Origin: a virus
DNA length: 30,066 nucleotides
Direction: 5' to 3' (one strand)
IMG/VR virus record: IMGVR_UViG_3300025151_000190
Location: 1 to 30,066 of that record
Shown here: positions 1-26,474 of the stretch, piece by piece
How the letters are laid out: the number at the start of each line of letters is the position of its first letter
Position numbering within the stretch: position 1 is the first letter of the stretch
Position numbers and translations under genes: made by a program
Notes under the pieces: model-generated
Told to the model about the DNA's origin: nothing
Database searches by the model: none
Seen by the model: only the letters and a program-made list of their open reading frames with translations

Positions 1-2514
1 TGTAGATGCAATATCAGTTATTAATTTCTTTTTATTTAATATTTTTTCATCTATAGATTTATTATGAATAATTGCAGATTCATTCTTTTTAAATAAATCT
101 TGTCTTTCTAAACAAGTTTCTAATTCAGACTCTTTTGTTTGCATATCACTTTCTAATACTTGCAGTTGTAATTCTTGTTTATCTAATTTATTTCTAATGT
201 CTTGCTTTTCTTGAATTTTATCTATTTCATCTTGTAGAATATTTAATTTAAGTTTAGAAGAACGTTGAACTTGTTCTTGTTTTAATAAAGCTTTTTCTTT
301 TATTGGAATTTGTTTTTCTGCATCTTTAGCTTCTTGTACAAATATATTTGATACACAATATTTACATGTATGATCATATTCGTGATCTTTTAAATGATCA
401 ATTTTTTCTTGTAAATATATAAGTTCTGATTGATATGTATGTATCCATTTAGTGGATTCTTTTAAAGACTTATTAACGTTGTCTTTTTTTATATTAAGAA
501 CATTAATATCCGATTGAAAGTCATATTCTGATGAAACGTTACAACGACTATTTAGTATTTCAATTGTATCTTCTAAGTCTTCAATATCTGTTTGTAGTTC
601 TTCAATATCTTGTTCTAAATATGTTTGTGTATCCTGTAACTCTTTGATATCAGGTCCTTCATATGACATTGGTTGTTTCGATTCAATTAATTCTACAATA
701 TCATTTTGTAAACTATTTCTTGATTCTTGTAATTCATTATCTGTTTTTTCTAAGTCAATGATTGTATCTTGATTTTCAATAATAATATCATCTGATTCTT
801 TGATAATAGATCCAAAGTCTGTTTTTTTGTATTCTTTTAATTTACCAGCTGTTTCTTTTATTTCTTCTGATGCTAGATGATATAATTGTTCAAATACTGT
901 TGTGTCTAAAAATTGTGATAATAAATCTTTTCTTTCACGTTGAGACTTTTCTATAAAATTATTATTATCTGCTTGTAGTGAAAATGCAGTTAAAATAAAA
1001 TCATCATATGTTCCTAAATATCTTCTAATACTTTTATTTGTATCACTTCGCTCTTCTCCATTTAAATTTTCATCTTCATTATAAAAATTAACATTAACTT
1101 TAACATGTCCATGTTTCAATGTTATGCCTTCTCGTTCAATTGTATATAATTTATTATTTAATTTAAATTTAAATACTCCTTTAAATGTAGATTTTTTATT
1201 ATTTAAAACTTCTTTTGATTTACTTGTTTTGCTACATTTATCAAATATTGTATATGTTATTGCATCTAACAAAGAAGATTTACCAGATGCATTAGCAGCA
1301 AATAATCCTATAACATCAGATAATTTTGAAAAATCTACTTTATTATTTTCTCCATATGAAAACATATTATCAAACTCAAATGATACTGGATACCATGTTA
1401 CATTTCTAACAGACGATAAAACAGGAAGTTTAGAATTTATTGATCTATTAATATGTCGTATTGCATCTAATTCTTTTTTATCAGCATCAGGATAATTATC
1501 TTCAATATATTGTGTTATTAAATTATTTTGATATTCAATATCTCTAACATTACCAATAGAAATTGATCCATTTTGATTATTTTCAATATGATTAGCACTA
1601 CGCTGTATAGATATGTCTTGAACTTTATATTTTTTTCTAATAGTTGCAATTAATTTTTTAATATCAGATGCATCCGTATCGTTAAATTTAATTCTAACTC
1701 TTGGTTTATTTGGAACTCGATGTGGAGAATTAATAATTTTTGCATTATCAACTTCAAATGTTACGTAACCATAATCATTTTCAATTTCTATAAATTCAGC
1801 TGATCTATCAGGTAAATCCCATACTAATATTCCGTGATCCAACGCTTCTCCATGATTTTGTTGAATTAACGATCCAGGATATCCAATTGTTTTTTCTTTA
1901 TTTAAAAACTGTGCAGGCTTATGTATATCACCTAATAATGTTAAATCATGCCCTTCAAATAAATCTGTTGTAACATGATCATTTGATATTTGAAATCCAA
2001 TATCTGTTTTTGCATTATGCACAGCTCCATGATGTAATGCTATTTTATAATGTGCATCAAAATCTTTAGCTTGTATATAGTTTTTTGGGGCTACGTCTAC
2101 TGCCATATGATTAAATACAATATTTGCAAATTTAAATAATCCGTTTTCTTTTATAAAATGTATATTAGAATTATTGATAACATCTAATATTGGTGATATA
2201 GCATCTAATCTATATAAATTATTTAAATTCATATCATGATTTCCCAATATAACAATAGTTGGAATATGAAATCCATTAAAGAATTTTGTTAACATGTTAA
2301 TTAATTCTGGAGACATATCTAATTTGGAATGTACTATATCTCCAGTTACTACACAAATACTTTGATTTGTTGCATGTTGTGCAATATGTAAAAATAATGT
2401 ATCAAATACTTCTTGATATTCTTTATGTCGTTTTAATGTACGAATGTGAATATCTGATACATGAAAGATTTTGTCTACAGAATTAATATTTGTTTTTAAT
2501 GTTTTTATTTCCAT
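1..2514 (-). CDS. Fused Mre11/Rad50-type recombination nuclease-ATPase (gp47-gp46), partial at left edge
   Basis: One frame is open for 838 codons from ATG at 2514 to base 1; I checked every triplet and found no stop, so it continues past the window. The N-terminal part (about residues 1-340) is a gp47/SbcD/Mre11 metallophosphoesterase: D21-I-H23, D59 in TGD, GNHD at 91-94, HH at 161-162 and GDIH ending at H198. From about residue 370 a gp46/SbcC/Rad50 ATPase begins: a P-loop around K412, a long charged coiled-coil-like region, and a zinc-hook CKYC at 717-720. The second coil and the C-terminal ATPase half lie outside. In T4, gp47 and gp46 are separate proteins that together resect ends for recombination-dependent replication; here one chain should do both. 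The P-loop reads A-ANAS-GKS, with alanine in place of the first glycine. The start overlaps the primase stop by 10 nt. Confidence 0.93.
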   Translation of the reverse strand, partial: MEIKTLKTNINSVDKIFHVSDIHIRTLKRHKEYQEVFDTLFLHIAQHATNQSICVVTGDIVHSKLDMSPELINMLTKFFNGFHIPTIVILGNHDMNLNNLYRLDAISPILDVINNSNIHFIKENGLFKFANIVFNHMAVDVAPKNYIQAKDFDAHYKIALHHGAVHNAKTDIGFQISNDHVTTDLFEGHDLTLLGDIHKPAQFLNKEKTIGYPGSLIQQNHGEALDHGILVWDLPDRSAEFIEIENDYGYVTFEVDNAKIINSPHRVPNKPRVRIKFNDTDASDIKKLIATIRKKYKVQDISIQRSANHIENNQNGSISIGNVRDIEYQNNLITQYIEDNYPDADKKELDAIRHINRSINSKLPVLSSVRNVTWYPVSFEFDNMFSYGENNKVDFSKLSDVIGLFAANASGKSSLLDAITYTIFDKCSKTSKSKEVLNNKKSTFKGVFKFKLNNKLYTIEREGITLKHGHVKVNVNFYNEDENLNGEERSDTNKSIRRYLGTYDDFILTAFSLQADNNNFIEKSQRERKDLLSQFLDTTVFEQLYHLASEEIKETAGKLKEYKKTDFGSIIKESDDIIIENQDTIIDLEKTDNELQESRNSLQNDIVELIESKQPMSYEGPDIKELQDTQTYLEQDIEELQTDIEDLEDTIEILNSRCNVSSEYDFQSDINVLNIKKDNVNKSLKESTKWIHTYQSELIYLQEKIDHLKDHEYDHTCKYCVSNIFVQEAKDAEKQIPIKEKALLKQEQVQRSSKLKLNILQDEIDKIQEKQDIRNKLDKQELQLQVLESDMQTKESELETCLERQDLFKKNESAIIHNKSIDEKILNKKKLITDIAST

Positions 2515-3452
2515 AATGAATTTATTTCCATTTCCATCATTTCTTCAAAAGAAAAATGATATGTGTCTTGAATTTTTTCAGTAATTTTTTTATATCCTAA
2601 TTCATTAGGATCTTGTTCATTTAATTTTACTAGATGTACGTTTATTCCTTCATACATGAATGTTTTTGCTATTTGCTTTGCATTACTAATAGCATCCTGA
2701 TCTAAACATATGTAAATATCTTTTACTCCCTCTTCAATAATTTTTATACGTAATTTAGGATTAATCATTTTACCAAATAGTGGTATTGCATTTCTTTTTA
2801 TAGTTATAGCATCAAATGCTCCTTCGCATAATATAATAGGTTCATTCCAATTAATTAACATATCAAATCCTATAATATCTTTAGAAACTTTTGGATTCTT
2901 ATGCTTATATGGATCATTTTTATAAAATGCTCTTGATACAAAATAATTTAATTGACCGTTTGAATCATAACTAGGAATAATAATTTTTCCAGAATAAGCT
3001 CCTGATTCAGCATACCCAATTCTATAACGAATAATATCAAATATTGTTATTCCTCGATTTTTTAAATAATGTATTGCATTACGATAATCAGGAGTATTTT
3101 TTTCTATCCATAATGGTTTATATTCTTCAGGCAATTGTAATGTTTCTTTAATATCATCTTTAGTATATGAATTATCTCTATATTTTGTTCGTTCAATTAA
3201 TTTATTTAATTTTTCAAATTTATCTTTTGGTAGTTTTAATTGTTTAAATAAAGAATGTATAGTTCTACCTTTTTTATCAGATATCCAACAATGCCATGGA
3301 TTTTGACCTTCACGATTAGTGTTTATGTCTATTTCTAATTTAGGTTTGTAATGTGATGTAAATGGCGAAAAAAATGCAACATTGTTACCAGAAGTTGGCT
3401 TACCTTTACCTAAAACAGATTCTAATAATTGAAGTAATTTTAAATTCTTCAT
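2505..3452 (-). CDS. DNA primase, T4 gp61/DnaG-type with Toprim domain
   Basis: A 315-residue protein close in length to T4 gp61 (about 342). The Toprim core is visible: hydrophobic strand then E210-G in ILCEGAFDAI, and D251-x-D253 in ICLDQDA, the acidic residues that bind metal for RNA primer synthesis. The N-terminal segment (about 25-70) has the layout of a CHC2-type zinc module, SPFTSHYKP then NPWHCW then a KGRTIHSLF tail, but only one cysteine (C55) remains, so classical zinc binding looks lost. It would make primers at the phage fork with a gp41-type helicase, which is not in the window. The stop overlaps the start of the fused nuclease gene, suggesting coupling. No clear Shine-Dalgarno site precedes the ATG. 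Confidence 0.85.
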   Translation of the reverse strand: MKNLKLLQLLESVLGKGKPTSGNNVAFFSPFTSHYKPKLEIDINTNREGQNPWHCWISDKKGRTIHSLFKQLKLPKDKFEKLNKLIERTKYRDNSYTKDDIKETLQLPEEYKPLWIEKNTPDYRNAIHYLKNRGITIFDIIRYRIGYAESGAYSGKIIIPSYDSNGQLNYFVSRAFYKNDPYKHKNPKVSKDIIGFDMLINWNEPIILCEGAFDAITIKRNAIPLFGKMINPKLRIKIIEEGVKDIYICLDQDAISNAKQIAKTFMYEGINVHLVKLNEQDPNELGYKKITEKIQDTYHFSFEEMMEMEINSLWK

Positions 3453-3631: not shown

Positions 3632-4105
3632 TTAACTAAAAAATTTTACTAATGTTGGATCTTCGCCTTCTTTACAACATTCATCTAACCATTCTTTTGG
3701 TATTTCTTTTTTTGCAACATATTGTATTCCTAATTTATTTGCATACATTTCATATGTAGTTTTGGATCCTTTTGATATTTTTTGATTTGGATTTTGAAAT
3801 ACCATTCTTAAATCTATGTGTGGATTCGAAGCTAATATATGTTTCATTTTTTGTCTATCAGTACTTGTCCATCTTCCTTTTGTTTCCACATACATTGTTT
3901 TACCATTCTTTTTTGTAAAAATAAAATCAGGCGTATACTTTGAATTTTTTTGAGGAACAATATATTGTAATGTTTCTGTTTCATATCTTACTGGATATTT
4001 TGATTCTTTAATTTGATCTGCTACTTTTAGTTCTAGTCCAGATCTATATCCATATTTGTACGCCGCTTGGCGTTGTTTATTATTTGAATGCCAATAATTT
4101 TTCAT
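3632..4105 (-). CDS. T7 endonuclease I-type Holliday junction resolvase
   Basis: The 157-residue protein follows T7 gp3 endonuclease I along its length: RSGLE (E25), YTPDF (D60), VETKG (E74 and K76), a DRQKM helix, a MVFQNPN strand, and a C-terminal GIQYVAKKEIPKEWL. E25, D60, E74 and K76 correspond to the known catalytic residues E20, D55, E65 and K67 of the T7 enzyme, so it should be active. The enzyme resolves four-way junctions and branched DNA before packaging. T4 uses an unrelated enzyme, gp49 endonuclease VII, so this looks like non-orthologous replacement in a T4-like genome. A purine-rich AAAAGGAAA lies just upstream of the ATG. It sits in the DNA-processing cluster with the primase and the gp47-gp46 fusion. 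Confidence 0.92.
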   Translation of the reverse strand: MKNYWHSNNKQRQAAYKYGYRSGLELKVADQIKESKYPVRYETETLQYIVPQKNSKYTPDFIFTKKNGKTMYVETKGRWTSTDRQKMKHILASNPHIDLRMVFQNPNQKISKGSKTTYEMYANKLGIQYVAKKEIPKEWLDECCKEGEDPTLVKFFS

Positions 4106-26060: not shown

Positions 26061-26474
26061 TTATTTTATAACTAGTTGTTTTGGTGCTCTATCTTTAGCA
26101 TATGGGATTGTTATTGATAACATTCCTTTATCCATTGTGGCTTCTGCTTTAGATAAATCTAATTCTTTTGATATTTTCCATGCAAAATCAAAAGCTCTTT
26201 TAGCTATTCCTTTATGAATATAATCACGATGTTCTTCAACACCTTTTGTATATTTAATTCTTAAAGTTTCACCTTCTGTTAATATTTCGATGTCTTTTTT
26301 CTCTTTACCTACTGCAGCAATATCAAATTGTATTCCATTATCAGTTGTGTAAATATCAACTGGATAATTCATTTTATTTGTTATTACTGGTAAATATGAT
26401 GATTTTTGATCAATTAGATTTTTCCATACTAGATCAAAATCGTTGAATAGAAATGTTTCTTTAAAATGTGTCAT
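26061..26474 (-). CDS. Small heat-shock protein (Hsp20/alpha-crystallin)
   Basis: A 137-residue protein with the alpha-crystallin domain at about 35-137: YPVDIYTTDNGIQFDIAAVGKEKKDIEILTEGETLRIKY, then YIHKGIAKRAFDFAWKISKELDLSKAEATMDKGMLSITIPYA and a C-terminal LVIK, close to the I-x-I/V anchor motif. The A-x-x-x-G-x-L-x-I-x-[IV]-P signature is seen as ATMDKGMLSITIPY. Such chaperones hold unfolded proteins and are found in T4-like cyanophages, often linked to structural-protein assembly. It has the strongest Shine-Dalgarno site in the window (AGGAGG at 26481-26486, 6 nt from ATG), implying high expression. Confidence 0.92.
   Translation of the reverse strand: MTHFKETFLFNDFDLVWKNLIDQKSSYLPVITNKMNYPVDIYTTDNGIQFDIAAVGKEKKDIEILTEGETLRIKYTKGVEEHRDYIHKGIAKRAFDFAWKISKELDLSKAEATMDKGMLSITIPYAKDRAPKQLVIK

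Follow-up and report, generated by a model that had tools for sequence, protein, structure and literature searches.

Fusion of Mre11 and Rad50 in one protein was described for R555 of Mimivirus by Yoshida, Claverie and Ogata in 2011 (PMC3175470), together with twelve further cases, including one in Bacillus phage 0305phi8-36. In the same study, marine GOS homologues of R555 were found on scaffolds that also carry genes for a phage primase and a T7-gp3-like endonuclease. The fused order was argued to suit the known structure, and multiple origins of the fusion were inferred.

The gene analyzed here fits the 2011 description, down to the Asp that replaces His206. As in those fusions, an Mre11-like N-terminal and a Rad50-like C-terminal domain lie in one ORF, and the locus does not have the separate subunit genes of T4 gp46/gp47. 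The first-pass annotation, which knew of no well-studied phage example, implied that such a chain was new. This did not hold: phage and marine viral fusions were published in 2011, and several cultured phages carry a fused gene (Mel-JY01, PTm1/PTm5, pT24, PAU and MA9V-1). The joining of both subunits in one chain is very widespread among uncultured phages, yet the family has been known since 2011.

The fusion gene and its predicted structure

The window is the whole stretch analyzed, the 30,066 bases of virus record IMGVR_UViG_3300025151_000190 (positions 1 to 30,066). The fusion ORF runs without an internal stop across 838 codons (2514 down to 1, minus strand), and contains the whole Mre11-type nuclease half but only the beginning of the Rad50 half (Table 1). 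Residues 15-199 match Pfam Metallophos (E 1.4e-7) and residues 378-834 match the SbcC-like PHROG 77 (E 1e-21). All nuclease and Rad50 motifs named in the first-pass annotation were found in this one uninterrupted frame, on the minus strand, and the junction that it placed at about residues 340-375 lies near the modelled linker.

Table 1. Features of the fusion gene and its neighbors in the window
Feature	Positions	Strand	Basis or remark
Mre11-Rad50 fusion gene	1..2514	-	ATG start; 838 of about 1036 codons; open at left window edge
Mre11 phosphoesterase core, residues 15-233	1816..2472	-	Pfam Metallophos and model secondary structure
DIH metal-binding motif, residues 21-23	2446..2454	-	alignment with relatives, T4 gp47 and SbcD
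GD motif, residues 58-59	2338..2343	-	motif alignment
GNHD motif, residues 91-94	2233..2244	-	motif alignment
HH, residues 161-162	2029..2034	-	H162 aligns with metal-ligand His of SbcD/gp47
GDIH motif, residues 195-198	1921..1932	-	Asp in place of the His of T4 and SbcD (GHxH)
Mre11 capping region, residues 240-308	1591..1797	-	model position and secondary structure
Mre11 helix-loop-helix (Rad50-binding), residues 326-360	1435..1539	-	two model helices, 326-340 and 346-360
Inter-domain linker of 13 residues, residues 361-373	1396..1434	-	model; length comparison
Rad50 N-lobe (ATPase), residues 374-560	835..1395	-	PHROG 77; dN/dS 0.042; PDB Rad50/SbcC fold matches
Walker A / P-loop GLFAANASGKSS, residues 403-414	1273..1308	-	motif alignment
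CxxC zinc hook CKYC, residues 717-720	355..366	-	motif alignment
DnaG-type primase gene	2505..3452	-	PHROG 47, E 3e-30; overlaps fusion start by 10 bases
PHROG 945 endonuclease gene	3632..4105	-	E 1e-43

The metal ligands of Mre11/SbcD (DxH, GD, GNH, H and HxH) are all kept, except that the first His of HxH is an Asp (D196). The DIH motif is invariant across 26 relatives, save for I22, and aligns with T4 gp47 and with E. coli SbcD (DWH). In the P-loop GLFAANASGKSS, Ala replaces the first Gly of GxxxxGKS. Walker A and the zinc hook are inside the window, while the C-terminal motifs were seen in relatives, since the window ends before them. Relatives at 93% identity extend beyond the left edge and carry a second coiled coil, the ABC signature LTSGMERF, the Walker B/D-loop FIAIDEGWGSLD and the His switch IISH; the first-pass annotation had expected the coiled coil, signature and Walker B there. 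The complete fusion genes measured among the relatives encode 1031-1059 aa, and those of the window's subgroup 1031-1048 aa.

A monomer of a 1036-aa relative (L002) was modelled with AlphaFold2 (mean pLDDT 78.9). The individual domain folds appear usable, but the relative placement of the domains is unreliable, with a pTM of 0.42. In the model, the phosphoesterase core is followed by a capping region, then by helices at 326-340 and at 346-360, the linker at 361-373 and the first Rad50 strand at 374-382. The two helices correspond in position to the Rad50-binding helix-loop-helix of Mre11. The capping and helix-loop-helix region is retained and is followed by a 13-residue linker, in keeping with the span of about 28 Angstrom that the 2011 study required of such a linker. 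Fold matches in the PDB are MRN, SbcCD, archaeal Rad50 and other SMC proteins; Lamassu and JetABC are also present, as generic SMC matches. In BFVD, the best matches are giant-virus proteins (Tupanvirus, Harvfovirus, Yasminevirus, Terrestrivirus and Catovirus), which rank above every phage protein. The giant-virus relatives of R555 in that set (Tupanvirus, Harvfovirus and Catovirus) reach 25% identity along 1317 alignment columns.

Gene neighborhood and proposed role

The overlap between primase and fusion genes recurs in relatives, being the same in two loci (L004 and L013) and 8 bases in a third (L103). The order endonuclease-primase-fusion is conserved in these three and in L107. Baseplate wedge proteins are encoded farther off in the window, and a large tail-fibre-like protein is encoded downstream in relatives (L004 and L013). 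The window also has a gene for an Hsp20-type small heat-shock protein (26061-26474, minus strand; PHROG 432, E 8e-16). In seven large contigs, a RecA-family recombinase (RecA/UvsX-type) was found in five and a single Rad50 match in each; in contigs of 60-177 kb, the fusion is the only Rad50-like gene found.

A genome scan gave two relatives only, both on MAG contigs, and in both the primase is next to the fusion. One (L107, binned with Nitrosopelagicus) has the endonuclease and primase; the other (L108, binned with Halobacteriovorax) has a RuvC-like resolvase and a primase, then terminase and portal. Both are evidently phage contigs despite their prokaryote binning. A cellular origin, or host copies, was considered and rejected, as these sole two genome-scan relatives carry phage genes. 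Plasmids gave just distant, unfused matches. Flavobacterium phage immuto has a relative of the primase, yet no MR gene was found near that primase.

The gene very probably encodes a single-chain Mre11-Rad50 (SbcD-SbcC, T4 gp47-gp46) of the Mimivirus-R555-like fusion family, serving recombination-dependent replication in an uncultured marine tailed phage. Judging from their motifs, members of the family are expected to have nuclease and ATPase activity. Two chains would dimerise through their nuclease and ATPase heads, giving the usual M2R2 architecture. ATP binding would close the heads and gate the nuclease, and double-strand ends would be resected to 3' single strands for the recombinase, in recombination-dependent replication and end repair. 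The primase and endonuclease may act in the same pathway. The fusion would tether the helix-loop-helix, seated on the base of the Rad50 coil, by 13 residues and fix a 1:1 ratio; the reaction itself need not change.

Some observations count against this reading. Two motifs deviate: the nuclease half has GDIH in place of GHxH, and the ABC signature reads SGME, not SGGE. The fusion gene also lies between baseplate/tail genes and the tail-fibre-like gene, and is not part of a replication cluster as it is in T4. The alteration of a metal ligand and of the ABC signature across the clade, the position between tail genes, and the presence of Lamassu and JetABC in the fold list, generic as these matches are, would also suit a protein with no repair role that acts, for example, in defence, in counter-defence or only in degradation of host DNA. 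However, all remaining catalytic motifs are invariant, linkage to primase and endonuclease/resolvase genes is kept even in distant members, and the large contigs offer no other Rad50-like gene; such a different role seems very improbable. T4-like phages need gp46/47, and in T4 these proteins degrade host DNA too, hence the roles in repair and in degradation overlap.

Integrity of the chain and its junction

Among viral contigs, one scan found 414 close relatives and a profile scan at least 588. We searched 180 fetched loci, some of which are the same contig fetched twice. The complete chain is a single ORF in 139, contig ends cut the gene in 35, and it is interrupted in six. Among the six, a single T-to-G change puts a stop at codon 349 of L018, whose gene is otherwise identical to that of L016; L152 loses its frame at the zinc hook; and the frames of the remaining four (L085, L106, L149 and L150) break at about residue 208, within the nuclease domain. 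In none of the six do two genes meet at the Mre11/Rad50 boundary, the stop in L018 being the one single-base stop near the junction. The first-pass annotation had named a sequencing error, shown by read mapping or by close relatives with two separate genes, as what would speak against a true gp47-gp46 fusion. No close relative is split at the boundary, and the 139 complete chains bear the fusion out.

The linker has 12-15 residues in all sampled fusions, and 13 in the window's group. In a codon comparison of eleven relatives, dN/dS was 0.09 in the nuclease core, 0.042 in the Rad50 N-lobe and 0.44 in the coiled coil. At the junction it was about 0.07-0.09 (0.066 over residues 337-372, and 0.086 for helix-loop-helix plus linker). 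Because the values are similar (0.086 versus 0.09), the junction is held by purifying selection as tightly as the nuclease domain. Both the near-constant length and the selection agree with the conserved junction that the first-pass annotation had proposed to look for. A short linker between folded domains, as modelled, might also point to a protein made as one chain but active only after proteolytic cleavage of the linker, as an ordinary two-subunit MR. Against cleavage stand the conserved length and the purifying selection, and we consider it very unlikely.

An internal translation start giving a separate Rad50 was sought and rejected. The only candidate in the window is M384, which has no Shine-Dalgarno sequence and sits in the conserved N-M-F-S-Y-G, past the first Rad50 strand. 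Among the 139 relatives, just one has an ATG with a Shine-Dalgarno sequence within the 65 codons that precede Rad50. As far as sequence can show, this is a single ORF without an internal start, and therefore the 1:1 ratio of the two halves put forward in the first-pass annotation would be fixed. Its mechanistic remarks, on this ratio and on an intramolecular clamp contact, are reasonable, though the contact may be made either in cis or by swapping within the dimer.

A sequencing or assembly artefact, in which loss of a stop codon fuses genes that the virus itself keeps apart, has a precedent in Listeria phage LMTA-57, with one 1009-aa CDS where P100 has separate genes. For the window gene this reading is refuted by the relatives and has a negligible chance of being right: many metagenomes and cultured phages yielded the complete chain in one ORF, at 139 loci in all, the junction is under purifying selection, there is no internal start with a ribosome site, and the sole nearby stop is a one-base change in an otherwise identical gene. 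In LMTA-57 itself (L195, 2917-5946; P100 is L196), the two frames differ by an apparent one-base indel within an A-run, so that translation of the fused frame passes through the intergenic region, including the Shine-Dalgarno sequence of the second gene. That fusion looks like a sequencing error or a very young fusion.

The four loci broken in the nuclease domain represent three lineages (L150 4001-8051, also L149; L085 2983-7208; L106 3304-6544), all split at the same place, after GDIHK and before the YPGS strand, within the nuclease active site. Between the two pieces, L150 and L085 each carry a distinct endonuclease-like ORF (Vsr/DUF559-like and TnsA-N-like); the ORFs overlap by a few bases, and the first piece has a similar added tail ending in ..YLxxGW. 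At the split sites, no Rfam match to a self-splicing element was obtained, and visual inspection showed nothing resembling intein ends. In phage Aeh1, nrdA is split by a homing endonuclease and the split enzyme is active (PMC2988022). By analogy, the re-split looks like invasion by a homing endonuclease with reassembly of the pieces.

Origin of the fusion and comparison with known systems

The tree comprised 21 fused or re-split sequences and 8 from two-gene systems, and a branch with support 100/99 sets the fused group apart. Trees of the separate halves agree, with support for the fused clade of 98 for the Rad50 lobes and 18 for the Mre11 half alone, which is uninformative. A single fusion origin is indicated, not proven, for the sampled phages, unlike the multiple origins of 2011, because the tree covers neither giant-virus and cellular fusions nor 0305phi8-36 and its two-gene branches are long.

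The ABC signature has SGM in all sampled fusions, mostly as SGME (residues 946-951 of L002), whereas two-gene systems have SGGE, SEGE, SGAE, SRGE or STGQ. SGM is an unusual change in an ATP-contacting motif. GDIH is present in all sampled fused members save PAU. In one sub-branch (L104, L108 and L106), the zinc hook is CGDxFPTC or DKFPTC-like, not CxxC, and the split Rad50 of a Moorella phage has a similar hook, CNDKLKPSC. We propose tentatively, at somewhat under even odds, that the sampled tailed-phage fusions descend from one ancient fusion with SGME and mostly GDIH, which the R555 lineage of giant viruses probably shares. In this proposal the subunits were never re-separated at their boundary, and the active site was re-split at one position in three lineages, giving enzymes reassembled from an Mre11 fragment and an Mre11-fragment-Rad50 chain.

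Our survey indicates that uncultured phages of marine and fresh waters account for most of the fusion family of 2011, and that current annotation (AAA domain protein, metallo-phosphoesterase, gp288) obscures it. It adds to the 2011 picture one clade of phage fusions as against two-gene phages, and three re-split lineages, two with an inserted endonuclease gene. Single-chain MR is a naturally simplified version of a complex that has mostly been investigated in its two- or three-subunit forms, and a fixed linker within one chain may make cryo-EM and single-molecule work easier.

The R555-like fusions share with the window gene an N-terminal Mre11 and a C-terminal Rad50 in one chain, the Asp that replaces His206, and a linker of about 9-12 extra residues. 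The GOS homologues of R555 also have a primase and a T7-gp3-like endonuclease as neighbors, as in the window. R555 has 1351 aa, while the window type has about 1036 aa, with a shorter coiled coil, and lies in a tailed-phage genome. Complete phage copies, seen in the present survey, were not in view in 2011. The phage fusion of 0305phi8-36 (A7KV18), compared here by its 2011 description, reportedly lacks the capping/helix-loop-helix part and one P-loop NTPase segment (PMC3175470).

Among cultured phages, Microcystis phage Mel-JY01 has a full-length fusion (WWT39521.1) with 38-41% identity over the chain and the same motifs, annotated merely as 'AAA domain containing protein'; our literature search found no experimental study of it. 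A primase and a GIY-YIG gene precede it and, unlike in the window, the primase is separated from the fusion by a small ORF. The fusions of Tenacibaculum phages PTm1/pT24, Sphingomonas phage PAU (gp288) and Chryseobacterium phage MA9V-1 (PHROG 35725) belong to the same clade and have the same domain order in one chain and the SGM signature, but are longer (1301-1326 aa), with longer coiled coils, about 21-28% identity and other gene neighbors. T4 gp47/gp46 and E. coli SbcD/SbcC share domain content and motif sets with the fusion; however, they are encoded by two genes, have GHxH and SEGE or SGGE where the fusion has GDIH and SGME, and fall outside the fused clade.
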